From NCBI RefSeq assembly GCF_001767295.1, contig NZ_CP014944.1:3720001-3784000 (forward strand): DNA of 64,000 nucleotides, given 5' to 3'. The DNA is from Colwellia sp. PAMC 20917 (GTDB lineage: Bacteria; Pseudomonadota; Gammaproteobacteria; Enterobacterales; Alteromonadaceae). Below are positions 57,100 to 64,000 of this stretch, piece by piece (within the stretch, counting starts at the first letter, position 1; each line of letters opens with the position of its first letter). The notes beneath the pieces are model-generated. The model had not been told where the DNA came from. It was given only the letters and a program-made list of their open reading frames with translations, and searched no databases. The position numbers and the translations under genes were made by a program.

Positions 57100-57175
57100 C
57101 GGCCGTTAGCTCAGTTGGTAGAGCAGTTGGCTTTTAACCAATTTGTCGAAGGTTCAAATCCTTCACGGCCGACCA
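57100..57175 (+). tRNA. tRNA-Lys (TTT), copy 1
   Basis: 76-nt cloverleaf with CCA encoded. Acceptor CGGCCGT/ACGGCCG, D arm GCTC...GAGC, anticodon stem GTTGG/CCAAT (one G-T pair) with loop CTTTTAA, so anticodon TTT, and T arm GAAGG TTCAAAT CCTTC. First of four identical copies. Confidence 0.97.
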
Positions 57176-57258
57176 CTTCTTTATAATGTTTATTTCTTAT
57201 AAAGAAAAAGAAGCACCTTGTAAGATTCGAAATTTATTTCGAAAAAAAGAAAATATGG

Positions 57259-57334
57259 CGGCCGTTAGCTCAGTTGGTAGAGCAGTTGGCTTTTAACCAA
57301 TTTGTCGAAGGTTCAAATCCTTCACGGCCGACCA
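57259..57334 (+). tRNA. tRNA-Lys (TTT), copy 2
   Basis: Identical in sequence to copy 1, including the encoded CCA. The 83-bp spacer from copy 1 is not repeated elsewhere in the array. Confidence 0.97.
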
Positions 57335-57424
57335 CTTTCTTTCTTAACAAGTACAATGCAAAATTAGCATGTTAGTGATTTTTGCATTAGTTGATGATGA
57401 TTCTCAACACCACAGTTTATATGT

Positions 57425-57500
57425 CGGCCGTTAGCTCAGTTGGTAGAGCAGTTGGCTTTTAACCAATTTGTCGAAGGTTCAAATCCTTCACGGCCGACCA
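57425..57500 (+). tRNA. tRNA-Lys (TTT), copy 3
   Basis: Identical to copies 1 and 2. The ~87-bp spacer before it recurs almost unchanged (two differences) before copy 4, exactly 280 bp later, showing a tandem duplication. Confidence 0.97.
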
Positions 57501-57552
57501 CTTCTTCAATAGTTAATTTCCAAATTTATAAGTCAGATAGCAAACAACAAAA

Positions 57553-57614
57553 AGCCGAGGCTTTTAACCGTTAAGCCGATTAGCTCGAAGGTTCAAATCC
57601 TTCACGGCCGATCA
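57553..57614 (+). pseudogene. tRNA-Lys 3'-half copy 1
   Basis: GGCTTTTAACC of the anticodon arm, then CGAAGGTTCAAATCCTTC (perfect T arm) and the acceptor 3' strand with ATCA end. The 5' half (acceptor 5' strand, D arm) is replaced by AAAGCCGAGGCTTT, a hairpin of its own, and GTTAAGCCGATTAGCT. Cannot form a cloverleaf. This copy ends GATCA instead of GACCA. Confidence 0.75.
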
Positions 57615-57704
57615 ACTTCTTTCTTAACAAGTACAATGCAAGATTAGCATATTAGTGATTTTTGCATTAGTTGATGATGATTCTCAACACCACAGTTTAT
57701 ATGT

Positions 57705-57780
57705 CGGCCGTTAGCTCAGTTGGTAGAGCAGTTGGCTTTTAACCAATTTGTCGAAGGTTCAAATCCTTCACGGCCGACCA
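57705..57780 (+). tRNA. tRNA-Lys (TTT), copy 4
   Basis: Identical to the other three copies. Starts 280 bp after copy 3 and shares its upstream spacer. Confidence 0.97.
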
Positions 57781-57812
57781 CTTTCTTTCTTAAGTCAGAC
57801 AGTACAAAAACT

Positions 57813-57876
57813 AAAGCCGAGGCTTTTAACCGTTAAGCCGATTAGCTCGAAGGTTCAAATCCTTCACGGCCGACCA
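57813..57876 (+). pseudogene. tRNA-Lys 3'-half copy 2
   Basis: Same design as the first half copy, with the T arm and ACGGCCGACCA intact and the 5' AAAGCCGAGGCTTT hairpin conserved. Confidence 0.75.
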
Positions 57877-57910
57877 CTTCTAAATTCTTAAGTCAGATAG
57901 TACAAATACC

Positions 57911-57974
57911 AAAGCCGAGGCTTTTAACCGTTAAGCCGATTAACTCGAAGGTTTAAATCCTTCACGGCCGACCA
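57911..57974 (+). pseudogene. tRNA-Lys 3'-half copy 3
   Basis: Third half copy, starting 98 bp after the second, with a related spacer (AAGTCAGATAGTACAAA). One substitution in the T arm (GGTTTAAATCC). The CCA end is kept. Confidence 0.72.
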
Positions 57975-58236
57975 CTTTCTTTAGTGGACGACTTTTCATT
58001 AATTTTTTGTGTCCTTACTCTCTACGACCAAAGTAAACGGTATTCGTTAATATTCTATGGATCTCATTTGGTGACAACTTTTTATTGTTTTTTAATATGT
58101 TTGTTTCATTTCAATAAGTAGCTATTCTTTTTACACCGTAAGAAGTTCCGAAAACACCTGAGCTTGCTAAAGAATAAGTTAGCTTTATTATTTCAGCATT
58201 ATTGGGCTCTATATAAAGAGTTTTTTTATCAACAGT
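57975..58236. other. short stretch without a gene
   Basis: No ORF, tRNA or clear hairpin recognised between the tRNA-Lys array and the recombinase relic. Confidence 0.3.
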
Positions 58237-58655: not shown

Positions 58656-58678
58656 TTTTATCAGCACCGTCGAGAAAA

Positions 58679-58698
58679 CTCGGTACTTTAGTGCCGAG
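58679..58698. repeat. left flanking palindrome of TnpB relic
   Basis: CTCGGTACTTTAGTGCCGAG, an 8-bp stem with one G-T pair and a TTTA loop. Identical to the copy at 59997-60016. Confidence 0.85.
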
Positions 58699-58750
58699 AT
58701 GAATCCATAATTTCTTGACAACCTATGCTTATACAGTACCTATACAGTAT

Positions 58751-59972
58751 ATGAAAAGGACGCTCAGATACAATTACCGGCTCAAGCCAACAGTAGAGCA
58801 AGAAGTTAAACTCGTAGTGTTTGGCTCATATGCTCGTGGGCTGTGGAACTTGTTGCTGTCTGAAAATATACGTCGATATCGCTATGATAAAACGTTTTTG
58901 TTTTACTATGAAATGGCGGGGTTAATTCGTGACTTGAAAAAGTTCGACGAATTCTCTTGGCTCAAAGCCTTTGATTCTTCAGCTTCACAGCAAGTAGCTC
59001 GTGATTTGGAAGCGGCTTTAAAAAACGCATTCACAAAAGGTCGATTGCAGCAGTTTCCTACTTTCAAAGAGAGCTTTAAACAAAAAAAGCTTCACGATGA
59101 TAGCTTTCGTTGTGTTAATAATTCAAATTGTATTCGCATAGAAAATGGCGCTATCAGCATTCCTAAAGTTGGTAAAGTACCGATTGTTTTTCATCGAAAA
59201 CTATCCAGTAAAATCAAAACAGCTACGGTGCAATTTAAGCACGGAAAATGGTATGTTTCACTCACTCAAGAAGTTGAGTGCAAAAGTGCAAAGCAAGTGC
59301 TATCGACACTTGTAGGTTATGATATCAACAGCCAACACACCGTCGTTGGTTCAAATGGGTGGTACGTTAAAAACCCGAAAGCTTTCAAAAAATCTTCAAC
59401 CAAATTAAAGCAAATTCAAGTCCAGTTGAGCCGTCGAAAGAAAGGCTCTACTCGCTGGCACAAAACAAAAACACGCTTAAATAAACTTCACGGAAAAATC
59501 TCTCGCCAACGCTTAGCGTTTGCTCACGAAGTATCATGTTCGATAGCCAAGACCAGTGATATCATCGTGTTTGAGGATTTAAACGTGAAAGGAATGCAGC
59601 AGTTTAATGGTCAGATGGTGAAGGATAATGTGATGGGTATGGTCACAGCGTTAACCCAGTACAAGGCTTAATTAAAGGGTGCTGTGTACCATGAAATAGG
59701 TCGATATGTGAAATCGTCAGGCATTTGTTGCGAATGCAAACATGAGCATAAATTCGATTTGAGTGTGAGAAATTTCGCGTGTGAAAGCTGCGGCACAGTG
59801 CAGATATTTGTCTGCGGCTAAATCAGTGGCAGACACAGGCGAAAAAGAGTTAATAGCTAATGGGATATTAGTTAGGGCGTTGCCCAAAGCTCAGCAGAAA
59901 TCACCTTCTAAAATAAAAGTCTTTGAGCAATCAAAGTTTGGTGTGGGAACTGAGAAAAAAGAAGCAGCCTAG
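58751..59972 (+). pseudogene. TnpB-like (IS200/IS605 OrfB) RNA-guided nuclease relic
   Basis: From ATG 58751 (MKRTLRYNYRLKPTVEQEV; TTG 58715 also possible). The first RuvC Asp is in LVGYDINSQHTVV and the Glu in IIVFEDLNVKGMQ. A TAA at 59669-59671 interrupts it. In the same frame the zinc ribbon follows (SSGICCECKHEHKF ... NFACESCGTVQ). A frame change then leads to RYLSAAKSVADTGEKELIANG, the usual C-terminal end, where the last catalytic Asp of RDxSAA is Tyr. So it is inactivated three ways. The element is bounded by two identical palindromes. No tnpA is adjacent. Confidence 0.8.
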
Positions 59973-59996
59973 CCGTTAAAAGCTAAATTGCAGAAG

Positions 59997-60016
59997 CTCG
60001 GTACTTTAGTGCCGAG
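59997..60016. repeat. right flanking palindrome of TnpB relic
   Basis: Exact second copy of CTCGGTACTTTAGTGCCGAG, 25 bp after the TnpB reading frame ends. Such subterminal palindromes mark IS200/IS605-type element ends and the region that gives the guide RNA. Confidence 0.8.
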
Positions 60017-60609: not shown

Positions 60610-62994
60610 TTGACTGAGCAATATAAAATTGTCGTAATTGGTGCCGGACCTGGTGGAATAAGTGCAGCTGCACATGCCGCAGAGCTTAATATATCGCATG
60701 TTTTATTAGAAGCTAGTCCCAAGATTGCTAATACCATTCAAAAATACCAAAAAGGTAAACATGTTATGGCTGAGCCTAGCATTCTACCTTTACGAAGTCC
60801 TATCGCATTTGAAGCCGGTAAAAGAGAAACTATTCTAGACGAATGGCTACAAGGGCTTTTACAAAACAAAGTTAATCTTAAATATAATGCTGCAGTCGTC
60901 AATATTGATGGGCAAAAGGGTGATTACACAATTACTCTTGCCAATGGCGATGTAATAAAAGCAGAATTTATTATTCTTGGCATTGGCGTGCAGGGTAACC
61001 CCAGAAAACTTGGGGTTACAGGTGATGATGCTGATTTTGTCCAATATACACTTGATAACCCTGATGATCATAATAATGAAACCATTGTTATTGTAGGTGC
61101 TGGTGATGCTGCTATAGAAAATGCGGTTGTATTAGCTAAAAATAATAAAGTTTATATTGTTAATCGACGTGATGAATTTGCTAGAGCCAAAGAAGGTAAT
61201 TTAAATTTAATTACTGCAGCAATTGATAGTGGCGATGTTGAATGTTGTTATAATACCAATCCTCACTGTGTTGAATTAACACCAGACCAAGAAAAACCTG
61301 GGGTATTTGTATTAAAAACAGCGTCGGGTGAAATTAGCGTACCCGTTGATAGAATCATTGCACGTTTAGGTGCAATTCCCCCGCGAGCTTTAGTTGAATC
61401 TTTTGGCATCGAATTTCCAAACAGTGATCCAAATTCTATTCCTGTTTTATCTGCTAAGTATGAATCAAATGTAGCTGGTATGTATGTTATTGGTGCACTA
61501 GGCGGTTATCCATTAATTAAACAAGCCATGAATCAAGGCTACGAAGTTGTTGAATATATACTCGGCAACGACATTAATCCTGCTGATCATCCTTTATTAG
61601 AAAGTAAGCTCGAACATTTACCGTTTGATATGGATGTTGATCAAATACTTTCTAAGATGCAAACAGACATTCCAGTATTTACACCATTATCGGCTTTATC
61701 TTTTAGAGAGTTAATGCTTGATAGCCAAGTGCATGTATTTGAGCCTAATAAAGAAATTTTTAAGAAAAATGATTATACCAATAGTTTTTACACCATTTTG
61801 CAAGGTGAGGTAAATATTGTCATTGGTGATAGGGTAATAAAAAGCACACAAGGTAATTTCTTTGGAGAAATGAGTTTAATCTCAGGTCGACGACGTTCTG
61901 CGACGGTTTTGGCTGGTGAATCGTGTATCGTAATTGAAACACCTCGTCGAACCATGATTAAGCTCATTACATCTGTTGATGCCGTTAAAAGGGTATTAGA
62001 TGAGACTTTTATTGTGCGTATTATACAAGAAAAGTTTGCCCCAAAAGTACCGATTGAACAACTACAACCCATTGCAAAAAAAGCAAAGCTTAACCAGTAT
62101 CGCGCTAATGAAGTGTTATTTTCAGAGGGAGATGAAGCAAACTGTTTACATGTTATTAGAAATGGTTCTGTTACGGTATCAAAAAAAGTTGGCGACAAAG
62201 ATATTCCGATGACCTACGTGGCGGCAAACAATGTTGTTGGTGAAATGGGACTATTAGGTAATACCGTTAGGTCGGCAACCATTACAGCTACCGTTAAAAC
62301 TGAAACAATTTCTATAGACAGTGATTCATTTAACGATTTGTTAGCAAAATCACCAACCTTACGTGAAACCATGGAGCTTGAGGTACAAAAACGCCATCTA
62401 GAAAATACCAAGCTTGAATCAGACAGTGAAACAGGTGATATTTTATCATTTTTGATGCAACAAGGTTTGGGCGAAGCTACAGATGTTTTATTGATCAATG
62501 AAGATACGTGTGTTGGCTGCGATAACTGTGAAACCGCATGTGCAGCAACCCACGGTGGAACTTCACGTTTAAACCGTAAAGCTGGGCCTACATTTGCTCA
62601 TGTTCACGTACCTACATCATGTCGCCATTGTGAAGACCCTAGTTGTATGAAAGATTGCCCCCCGGATGCAATACATCGAGGTGGTCTTGGTGGGGAAGTT
62701 TTTATTGACGACAGCTGTATAGGTTGTGGTAATTGTGAACGAAATTGTCCTTATGGTGTTATTCAAATGGAATACCCTAAAGAAAAAAACACTAACTTTT
62801 GGCCTTGGATGTTTTTCAATGCAGGGGAAAAACCTGGTGATAATAAAGTAAAAGATGGGGATAACATCAAAAAAGCTGTTAAGTGTGACATGTGTAAGGA
62901 TATCGAGGGTGGAGCGGCCTGTGTTCGTGCTTGTCCAACGGGTGCGGCTAACAGAATCAGCCCTGAAAATTTTATTAAAGTGGTAAATTTATAA
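60610..62994 (+). CDS. fusion of flavin oxidoreductase, two cNMP-binding domains and a four-cluster ferredoxin
   Basis: A 794-residue cytosolic protein. Residues 1-325 form a thioredoxin-reductase-like FAD/NAD(P)H module: FAD site VIGAGPGGISAA (9-20) and second Rossmann loop VGAGDAAIE (162-170), but no redox CxxC, as in YpdA-like proteins. Residues about 345-470 and 475-600 are two cyclic-nucleotide-binding folds, each with the phosphate cassette kept: FFGEMSLISGRRRSATV (417-433) and VVGEMGLLGNTVRSATI (542-558), with Glu and Arg in place. Residues 630-780 hold 16 Cys in four 4Fe-4S groups (C634/637/640/644, C671/674/679/683, C703/706/709/713, C759/762/771/775), a DmsB-like electron-transfer chain. 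TTG 60610 is the best start. Its stop is one base before the membrane gene. Redox function is clear; substrate, ligand (cAMP, c-di-GMP, other) and pathway are unknown. Confidence 0.85.
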   Translation: MTEQYKIVVIGAGPGGISAAAHAAELNISHVLLEASPKIANTIQKYQKGKHVMAEPSILPLRSPIAFEAGKRETILDEWLQGLLQNKVNLKYNAAVVNIDGQKGDYTITLANGDVIKAEFIILGIGVQGNPRKLGVTGDDADFVQYTLDNPDDHNNETIVIVGAGDAAIENAVVLAKNNKVYIVNRRDEFARAKEGNLNLITAAIDSGDVECCYNTNPHCVELTPDQEKPGVFVLKTASGEISVPVDRIIARLGAIPPRALVESFGIEFPNSDPNSIPVLSAKYESNVAGMYVIGALGGYPLIKQAMNQGYEVVEYILGNDINPADHPLLESKLEHLPFDMDVDQILSKMQTDIPVFTPLSALSFRELMLDSQVHVFEPNKEIFKKNDYTNSFYTILQGEVNIVIGDRVIKSTQGNFFGEMSLISGRRRSATVLAGESCIVIETPRRTMIKLITSVDAVKRVLDETFIVRIIQEKFAPKVPIEQLQPIAKKAKLNQYRANEVLFSEGDEANCLHVIRNGSVTVSKKVGDKDIPMTYVAANNVVGEMGLLGNTVRSATITATVKTETISIDSDSFNDLLAKSPTLRETMELEVQKRHLENTKLESDSETGDILSFLMQQGLGEATDVLLINEDTCVGCDNCETACAATHGGTSRLNRKAGPTFAHVHVPTSCRHCEDPSCMKDCPPDAIHRGGLGGEVFIDDSCIGCGNCERNCPYGVIQMEYPKEKNTNFWPWMFFNAGEKPGDNKVKDGDNIKKAVKCDMCKDIEGGAACVRACPTGAANRISPENFIKVVNL

Positions 62995-62995
62995 A

Positions 62996-63859
62996 ATGGA
63001 TCAATTTCTCTCGTACGCTAATGGTCGTTATTTAAAAATCACCTTTATATTAACGATTATTATGTCAATTATTTATGTATTACATGAACCCGGACAACCA
63101 AAAAATGGTGGCACATGGTTTGGTTATACTATTGGCACTATTTCAGCATTACTGATTGTTTGGTTAATGTATTTTGGTCGCAGAAAACGAGATTATTTCT
63201 CAACTTTAGGGACAGTTAAAGGCTGGTTATCTGCTCATGTTTATTTAGGTAGTGGTCTACTTATTCTAGCTACCTTGCATACAGGTTTTCAATTTGGTGT
63301 AAATGTTCATACTCTCGCGTATTTTTTAATGTGTATCGCTATTTTTAGTGGTTTTTATGGGGCATGGAGTTATGTATACCTACCTATTAAAAAAAGAGAA
63401 AATCTTAAGACAATATCTGCAGAAGAGTACTATTTATTAATTGAAGATGTTGATCGCCAAATAATTAAATTATCTAAAAAGTTACCAGAAAAAATGATGT
63501 TGATGATCAATAGTGCGATTGAACGTACTGAAATTGGTGGCAATGTTTTTAATCAGTTAAGTGCTAAAGACAGATCTTGTTTATTAGTTGACGGTAAATT
63601 GAATAACAACGAAAACCAGTCTACGGTTATCCATTTATTAGTAACAGAATTAGCGAAGGTTACTGATCAGCAAAGTGCTACCCAACTTAAGCAAATAATT
63701 GACTTATTTGGTAGCAGAAAAAAGTCATTGAAAATATTACGTCATCACATTAAAACCGATGCATTACTAAAATTATGGTTATTTATACATGTGCCAATCT
63801 CATTCGCGTTATTAGCAGCTTTACTGGCACATATTCTATCAGTATTTATCTATTGGTAA
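62996..63859 (+). CDS. membrane protein with two conserved His pairs, possible diheme cytochrome b
   Basis: A 287-residue inner-membrane protein with five hydrophobic segments at about 11-29, 42-60, 79-99, 106-128 and 262-285. H81 and H95 lie in one helix (HVYLGSGLLILATLHTGF) and H265 and H279 in the last (HVPISFALLAALLAHIL). Each pair is 14 residues apart, the spacing of heme b ligands in cytochrome b. A ~125-residue cytoplasmic-looking region (about 133-260) separates them. It is 1 bp after the flavin/Fe-S gene, so it is probably the membrane partner that passes electrons to or from quinone. Family not recognised with certainty. Confidence 0.65.
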   Translation: MDQFLSYANGRYLKITFILTIIMSIIYVLHEPGQPKNGGTWFGYTIGTISALLIVWLMYFGRRKRDYFSTLGTVKGWLSAHVYLGSGLLILATLHTGFQFGVNVHTLAYFLMCIAIFSGFYGAWSYVYLPIKKRENLKTISAEEYYLLIEDVDRQIIKLSKKLPEKMMLMINSAIERTEIGGNVFNQLSAKDRSCLLVDGKLNNNENQSTVIHLLVTELAKVTDQQSATQLKQIIDLFGSRKKSLKILRHHIKTDALLKLWLFIHVPISFALLAALLAHILSVFIYW

Positions 63860-63873
63860 TGTGAGGAAAGATA

Positions 63874-64000
63874 ATGAAATTACTGATCAGACATTTAAAA
63901 AAACAAGGGCAAGGCCAAACTACAGAAGATGTATTTGTAGAAGGTGATACCTTACTTATTGGTCGCGGTACCAATCAACATATATTGCTACCCGATCAGA
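63874..64000 (+). CDS. FHA-like domain protein (partial, runs off window)
   Basis: ATG 63874 with GAGGAAAG 4 bp upstream, 14 bp after the membrane gene. The 42 visible codons read MKLLIRHLKKQGQGQTTEDV and then FVEGDTLLIGRGTNQHILLP. The LIGRGTNxHIxLPD pattern is the start of an FHA (phosphothreonine-binding) or related beta-sandwich domain. Only the first part is visible, so identity and length are open. Third gene of the redox operon. Confidence 0.55.
   Translation, partial: MKLLIRHLKKQGQGQTTEDVFVEGDTLLIGRGTNQHILLPDQ

Follow-up and report, generated by a model that had tools for sequence, protein, structure and literature searches.

A cluster of genes that starts near the end of a 64,000-nucleotide stretch of the Colwellia sp. 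PAMC 20917 genome (the window, bases 3,720,001-3,784,000 of one 4.68 Mb contig) and runs on beyond it may encode a trans-envelope electron conduit related to the PCC4 clusters, linked to NAD(P)H and gated by cyclic AMP (cAMP), a reading that we hold with slightly better than even confidence. Its first gene, A (60610..62994, on the plus strand like the genes that follow it here), encodes in one chain a NAD(P)H/flavin adenine dinucleotide (FAD) module of the TrxR/FNR-like type, two cyclic-nucleotide (cNMP) domains and a ferredoxin part with four 4Fe-4S sites. It is followed by B (62996..63859), a probable di-heme b protein with five inner-membrane helices, and by C, whose first 42 codons, an FHA-like start, close the window (63874..64000) and whose whole gene reaches 65685 (genome position 3,785,685; positions past the window are genome positions minus 3,720,000). 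Inside A, electrons would be exchanged among NAD(P)H of the cytoplasm, FAD and the four 4Fe-4S clusters; they would cross the inner membrane over the two b hemes of B, and continue to the ten-heme C, anchored in the inner membrane, and then to an outer-membrane module formed by a barrel (E), an HbpS-type protein (D), a ten-heme/propeller protein (F) and a four-heme cytochrome (G). We infer this order of carriers, the cofactors bound, cAMP as the ligand, the gating and an outward flow from NAD(P)H to the outside; the domains, the conserved ligand residues, the synteny, the operon structure and the kinship with PCC4 are seen in the sequences themselves. The cNMP domains, with the flavin part of A on one side and its Fe-S part on the other, would act as the gate: a linked CHASE2 cyclase would sense an extracytoplasmic signal and make cAMP, which would alter the flavin-to-Fe-S geometry and thereby switch electron transfer on or off.

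The reading frame of A opens with TTG and spans 794 amino acids. Pfam places Pyr_redox_2/3 at residues 5-310 and several Fer4/4Fe-4S models at 664-779; PF13247 scores 38.9 bits (cut-off 26.2), and Fe-S profiles of the HydN and AegA type begin at about residue 627. The cNMP-binding domain PF00027 scores 114.6 bits over two stretches, which map to 61732..61968 (residues 375-453) and 62095..62349 (residues 496-580), and the ferredoxin part, with 16 cluster cysteines at residues 634-775, occupies 62509..62934. The start of the protein is closest in the PDB to YpdA, thioredoxin reductase and TrxR-like ferredoxin-NADP reductases, its middle to parts of cGMP- and cAMP-dependent kinases and its end to HycB-type ferredoxins. 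At least 529 stretches in the named genome collection encode a relative of A. The 80 best were examined; since the best-scoring were taken, more distant members are under-represented in the resulting 81 loci (80 fetched plus the window's own). In the conservation alignments (103 rows for A, 79 for B, 81 for C, 52 for D, 24 for E and 25 for F), the 16 Fe-S cysteines of A are all kept in 103 of 103 rows, as are Gly-Glu and Arg429 of the first cNMP domain (CNB1) and Gly-Glu of the second (CNB2), whose Arg554 is kept in 100; we take Gly-Glu...Arg to be the phosphate-binding cassette residues of PF00027. In the flavin part, GxGxxG is found in 102 rows and the second dinucleotide motif (Gly163/Gly165) in all 103, and there is no CxxC upstream of residue 634. 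A first-pass annotation, made from the window alone, had described a FAD module without CxxC, two intact cNMP pockets and a 16-cysteine Fe-S chain, and both Pfam and the alignment bear this out. Conservation over 103 rows rules out chance motifs or a frame artefact and shows the residue pattern of A to be under strong selection.

The flavin part of A belongs to the same family as the TrxR-like ferredoxin-NADP reductases and YpdA, with the same dinucleotide motifs and no CxxC, but differs from them in its fusion to cNMP and tetracluster ferredoxin domains. We rejected a thioredoxin or bacillithiol-disulfide reductase, because A has no counterpart of the redox-active CxxC of thioredoxin reductase and its scores lie far under the equivalog cut-offs (for the YpdA model, 96.5 bits against 339.9). 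The domain order FAD, CNB1, CNB2, Fe-S in a single chain makes a hinge-like gate plausible.

Gene B starts 1 bp past the stop of A (62994/62996), a spacing already reported for the window. The protein carries WX3HX13H twice (W77-H81-H95 and W261-H265-H279) and SGxxG at 118-122. The two histidine pairs, singled out at first sight as possible ligands of two b hemes, hold up well: His81 and His265 are kept in 79 of 79 rows, and His95, His279 and also His105 in 78. W77, W261 and SGxxG are kept too, and the motif residues of this protein with five transmembrane (TM) helices are present in 77-79 of the 79 rows, one of which is apparently an overlapping frame of locus L058. An AlphaFold2 model has five long helices (11-29, 41-63, 74-96, 104-137 and 225-286; mean predicted local distance difference test score, pLDDT, 91.2) and puts His81/His95 on helix 3 and His265/His279 on helix 5. 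B itself has no Pfam match above cut-off; at E <= 0.1, 44 of 54 members of the family match cytochrome b561 (PF01292, best 3.8e-6) and only three match PF01794 (best 0.0013). The two HX13H expected on TM3 and TM5 of a PF01794 ferric reductase/NOX domain are seen in B, which may or may not belong to that family. By its motifs B is probably a di-heme b membrane protein.

The third gene was seen in the window only by its first codons, and was taken there for an FHA-like protein. The FHA-like start stands, at a PF00498 score (19.9 bits) slightly below the cut-off of 20.7; the gene as a whole (63874-65685, 603 residues) is a ten-heme cytochrome, FHA-like at its N-terminus, with a single TM helix at 139-157. 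Each of its ten CXXCH is kept in 79-81 of 81 rows, and the number is exactly ten in 76. It scores 21.9 bits with the DmsE-family decaheme model (cut-off 192.2). The phosphothreonine-binding residues of FHA domains are Arg, Ser and Asn. The FHA Arg is kept in 78 of 81 rows, His in 72 and Asn in 63, while the position that we take to be the phosphothreonine-contacting Ser is Ala in 40 and Ser in at most two, which makes phosphopeptide binding by C doubtful and led us to drop the FHA domain as a proven phospho-switch. Extension of the locus past 64000 brought cytochrome c genes, which the first-pass annotation had proposed to look for there, and no kinase or phosphatase among the downstream genes of this genome scanned by Pfam. 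The membrane electron-transfer complex gated by a second messenger that was first proposed is supported by the histidine pairs, the cNMP pockets and the linked cyclase, and its suggested control by phosphorylation is weakened by the Ser position and by the want of a kinase or phosphatase among those genes.

Downstream of C lie D (65675-67825; HbpS-type, 716 residues, with a lipobox-like N-terminus in 27 of 52 rows), E (67797-69632; a putative barrel of 611 residues with a weak porin profile), F (69640-73527; 1295 residues, ten CXXCH and LVIVD repeats) and G (73517-74821; four CXXCH, c554-like). Intergenic gaps from A through G range from -29 to +14 bp. No Pfam or Mtr-type porin model matches E, whose last residue is Tyr or Phe in all 24 rows; outer-membrane barrels end in an aromatic residue of this kind. 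Searched against PDB sequences, the profiles of B, E and F gave no convincing match. Profiles of the window's genes detected A in every one of the 81 loci; the counts for B, C, D, E, F and G were 66, 70, 63, 60, 58 and 21. Many loci stop at a contig or fetch edge. Where the downstream DNA reaches far enough, B lies after A on the same strand in 62 of 74 loci, C in 58 of 71, D in 50 of 62, E in 46 of 55 and F in 47 of 53. Loci with Betaproteobacteria titles and their kin have the order B-C-D-E-F-G-A, with B directly 5' of C in seven of seven genomes checked, and six of the 12 loci without a downstream B belong to these seven genomes; L098 was probably scored in this way only since its called B frame begins within A. 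Three alphaproteobacterial loci (L083, L097, L115) have A-B-C, one additional gene and D-E-F, and two Sphingobium plasmids (of 12 matches, two were examined) have A-B-C and then F-E-D-G on the opposite strand. The cassette is thus syntenic across Proteobacteria, and the condition under which the first-pass annotation would have been refuted, unlinked genes in orthologues, does not hold. The pairwise identities of six families also correlate (r 0.53-0.91; none of 1000 shuffles was as high for any of the 15 pairs); from this and from the linkage it follows, at the level of sequence comparison, that the six families travel together.

The kinship of the cluster is clearest with the PCC4 clusters. 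In the main text of He et al. (2017, PMC5566968), PCC4 consists of a porin, 4-, 5- and 10-heme cytochromes, an inner-membrane protein and other redox proteins; the inner-membrane protein has five TM, SGxxG on TM4 and WX3HX13H on TM3 and TM5, and in Subgroup II an Fe-S (pfam13247) gene lies 5' of it. B has the five TM, the SGxxG and both WX3HX13H of that description, the upstream Fe-S gene corresponds here to A (PF13247, 1 bp before B), and ten-heme and four-heme cytochromes and a putative outer-membrane barrel are present. However, the three cytochromes of 4, 5 and 10 hemes given there are not those of the window's cluster, which has 10, 10 and 4 CXXCH. A search of 299 genomes with the B profile matched 15, and six distant B matches comprise three PCC4-like loci (L159, L160, L163), two PCC3-like loci (L161, L164) and one of neither type (L162, with a seven-heme neighbour and, in a 673-residue frame, a homologue of the L163 reductase mentioned below), the PCC labels being given by gene content rather than by the sequences of He et al. 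L163 has a five-heme cytochrome c, a 459-residue barrel candidate that no profile matched, a NAD/FAD/2Fe-2S reductase, a four-heme cytochrome c, next the Fe-S gene, whose product joins two cNMP domains to a four-cluster Fe-S protein, and then a B homologue and a ten-heme cytochrome c. L159 and L160 resemble it as far as their contigs reach, and by the published outline L163 fits PCC4 Subgroup II and the other two fit it in part. In all three the Fe-S protein carries two cNMP domains and no FAD, and the reductase is separate. No homologue of that reductase (E <= 1e-3) was found in the open reading frames of the 81 A loci and 23 further ones (L117-L139), and the fused FAD of A thus seems to replace the separate NAD/FAD reductase of the PCC4-type loci.

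Other differences from PCC4 are the FHA-like domain on the ten-heme C and the presence of D and F. The five-heme protein of L163 lacks a homologue in the window's cluster. The E profile matches nothing significantly in L159, L160 or L163 (best E 0.93), and conversely E is not found with the barrel candidate of L163. Two hybrid loci (L091 and L135) have A-B-C together with a PCC4-type barrel candidate and a five-heme protein and without a D-E-F match in the DNA covered; by gene content, therefore, the inner module is exchangeable between two outer-membrane modules. Mechanical calling of open reading frames can mask genes behind spurious frames in G+C-rich loci, as occurred in L091. In the PCC3-type loci, where the membrane protein is homologous to B, the cytochromes have 21-27 CXXCH (a further cytochrome is truncated where the stretch stops) and no adjoining cNMP fusion was found; on the opposite strand of L161 (4477-5826), a 449-residue protein joins 4Fe-4S sites to the same Pyr_redox fold without cNMP, near 24- and 27-heme genes. 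With MtrCAB, MtoAB and PioAB the cluster shares the logic of a decaheme and an outer-membrane barrel, but C bears its own TM anchor and an FHA-like domain. The Geobacter ExtHIJKLMNOPQS cluster, as outlined by Jahan et al. (2018, PMC5877670), also brings porin, multiheme and cytochrome b genes together, and F resembles ExtM over 55 residues (67 bits against a cut-off of 800), whereas its gene content, to the extent given there, differs. We rejected plain membership of MtrCAB, Ext or PCC4; the heme set and the porin differ from those of PCC4. Since B matches the PCC3/PCC4 membrane protein, the cluster is, judged against the published outline, a sister variant of PCC4 rather than a wholly new kind. 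The novelty first claimed for it must be qualified to this extent: the observation was real and the system is larger than reported, while B and the Fe-S gene belong with PCC3/PCC4. What is new is the cNMP receptor fusion, found in the three PCC4-type loci as well, the fused FAD and the cyclase linkage. The terms 'cyclic nucleotide', 'cNMP' and 'FHA' have no occurrence in the main text of He et al., and in the open-access literature, the range of our search (subscription papers and preprints lay outside it), there was no report of a cNMP-receptor or FHA domain in a porin-cytochrome conduit.

A possible source of the ligand lies in the same locus. Gene K (85602-87821) encodes a CHASE2 and class III cyclase protein with a PF00211 score of 74.6 bits and the motifs FSDI, GTIDKYVGD and VLGDAVNLGSR, in which we take the class III catalytic residues Asp, Lys, Asn and Arg to lie. 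The one CHASE2 match and the one PF00211 match of this genome are both in K; a search for a class I cyclase, the only other class covered, gave just one match, which is below threshold, contains stops and is spurious. A single gene would fall by chance as near to A as 25 kb with a probability of about 1%. In six other loci (L052, L054, L061, L065, L066 and L070) the order is cyclase-TPR-FecR-A on one strand, with FecR and A overlapping by 4 bp in all six; L075 has cyclase-FecR-A without the TPR gene and with a gap of 5 bp, L057 has the cyclase and one gene before A, and L132 (G412) is ordered as L054, with a 15-bp gap. In L131 (G358) the cyclase, TPR and FecR set is inverted between A and B, and in G194 a CHASE2 gene lies on the contig and strand of A, about 20 kb further. 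Pfam confirmed the CHASE2 and cyclase domains of L065; in the other loci they were assigned by similarity to K. Cyclase matches in L062 and L073 (opposite strand) and in L092 (unrelated genes between it and A) were left uncounted. In a quick tree of 105 rows, built by a fast method that leaves 30 of 102 inner branches open, cyclase-linked A proteins fall in separate places (the L052-L070 group, Colwelliaceae, L057 and G358). Three arrangements, with the cyclase in an operon ahead of A, inverted between A and B, or far downstream of A, together with these scattered positions suggest that the association of cyclase and A arose repeatedly.

To our knowledge, cyclic-nucleotide control of extracellular electron transfer is known only at the level of transcription, and several of the host genera are not known to be electroactive. 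The presence of cAMP-receptor-like domains on the conduit's own NAD(P)H-linked subunit makes direct gating testable with one purified protein. We propose, tentatively and at somewhat less than an even chance, that cAMP from the envelope-sensing cyclase encoded in the operon binds A and acts directly on the flavin-to-Fe-S step, opening or closing it. Flow driven by NAD(P)H across both membranes would then be switched allosterically within seconds and not transcriptionally, and the shared receptor fusion would make this general to PCC4-like conduits. Moreover, the cluster, found in dozens of loci, is tied to PCC3 and PCC4, which suggests that their cytoplasmic partner may be NAD(P)H and not quinone alone.

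Several observations weigh against a cAMP-gated conduit. The tight cyclase linkage occurs in just eight of the 81 loci (L052, L054, L057, L061, L065, L066, L070 and L075) and is not seen in the DNA covered for the other 73, and in the window's genome A and K are 22.6 kb apart, with B to I and a giant cadherin-like gene between them. The hemes of B are read from motifs, a Foldseek search of the PDB with the B model giving no match at E <= 0.001; an AlphaFold model of an F fragment (mean pLDDT 49.8) is unusable in its heme part and mostly confident in its propeller part; and the ten-heme proteins of the PCC4-type loci have no FHA match. In two contigs of metagenome-assembled genomes (MAGs), L092 (Thiotrichales title) and L102 (Thiomargarita title), A occurs without B or C nearby among unrelated-looking genes, and most hosts are MAGs, of which those deposited under the titles Bordetella, Klebsiella, Mycobacteriaceae and Marinimicrobia are doubtful. 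The cNMP domains might also not gate at all, and instead bind another ligand or serve assembly or dimerisation, with the cyclase working for a cNMP-MscS channel or a CRP-like regulator, which we consider somewhat unlikely (these and the following confidences are not mutually exclusive). The gene directly after K does encode such a channel, a rival target of cAMP; four of the seven PF00027 matches in the genome lie outside A (two) and the channel (one); CHASE2 is widespread without A (51 of 147 genomes in the family sample, against three with A); and the second cNMP motif is not kept in the PCC4-type proteins. What speaks for gating is that both pockets of A are nearly invariant over 103 rows and that three different gene orders join the cyclase to A.

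The direction of flow might also be the reverse, from a donor outside the cell, for instance a reduced metal, to the quinone pool at B or to NAD(P)+ via A, with the cNMP domains regulating uptake. FNR-like flavin modules can work in both directions, and B bears the membrane-protein motifs of PCC3 and PCC4. In the main text of He et al. PCC4 is modelled as a donor-to-quinone path. We nevertheless regard inward flow as quite unlikely, because A ties the system to NAD(P)H, which Fe(II)-like donors would reach only uphill. The host genera Lysobacter, Dokdonella, Alcanivorax and Sphingobium, moreover, are heterotrophs. An outward, NAD(P)H-linked conduit would be compatible with a further possibility, to which we give close to an even chance, that D-E-F is a dedicated outer-membrane redox enzyme for one substrate and A-B-C-G its power supply, by analogy with MsrQ, which acts as the power supply of MsrP. 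Mean pairwise identity is higher in F (0.64) than in the other five families (A has 0.60 and C 0.37), and 24 relatives are 58-73% identical to the window's copy of F, values that refer mainly to the heme part since many rows are truncated at locus edges; the ten CXXCH of F and 13 further His are kept in 25 of 25 rows. Because F is so conserved, a specific substrate or a defined outer-membrane reaction is suggested rather than a non-specific outlet. The HbpS-like nature of D, and the hybrid loci in which A-B-C occurs with a barrel candidate and five-heme protein replacing D-E-F, point the same way. Against such an enzyme, no profile matched a known enzyme in the PDB, and there were only short ExtM-like and c3/c7 matches.

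Further along, G is followed by H (74927-76264, weak TPR match), I (76264-77481, FecR), a 2371-residue cadherin-repeat protein between FecR and the cyclase (77487-84602, equal to L119 88-7203), a metallo-beta-lactamase-fold protein (84732-85556), K, and the mechanosensitive (MscS) channel with a cNMP domain that adjoins it (87904-89430, equal to L119 10505-12031). The 2371-residue protein is lipoprotein-like, with long, near-identical runs of cadherin/Ig repeats, and in L130 a 2251-residue frame sits between A and FecR. On the Sphingobium plasmids a metallophosphoesterase gene (L117 19245-20093, L118 19459-20307), annotated CpdA in one of them, lies 16-20 bp after C. In L121 and L122, A and B form a single polypeptide of 1118-1123 residues with a nine-CXXCH C next to it, and the fetched stretches have no D-G match.

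A was matched in two of 247 genomes of the order sample (E 1e-60), 17 of 369 of the class (1e-50), 15 of 398 of the phylum (1e-50) and three of 147 of the family (1e-60), the window's own genome being included each time. Because A occurs in just three of 147 family genomes, it is possible that the cluster is an island at a tRNA-Lys array. Four tRNA-Lys genes lie 5' of it at 57100-57780, as does a TnpB/OrfB_IS605 frame (58715-59671) flanked by two 23-nucleotide direct repeats (58676-58698 and 59994-60016). Next to the array, at 57801-57977, there are two 79-nucleotide tandem copies, 95% identical, which look tRNA-like by eye and were not called by ARAGORN.

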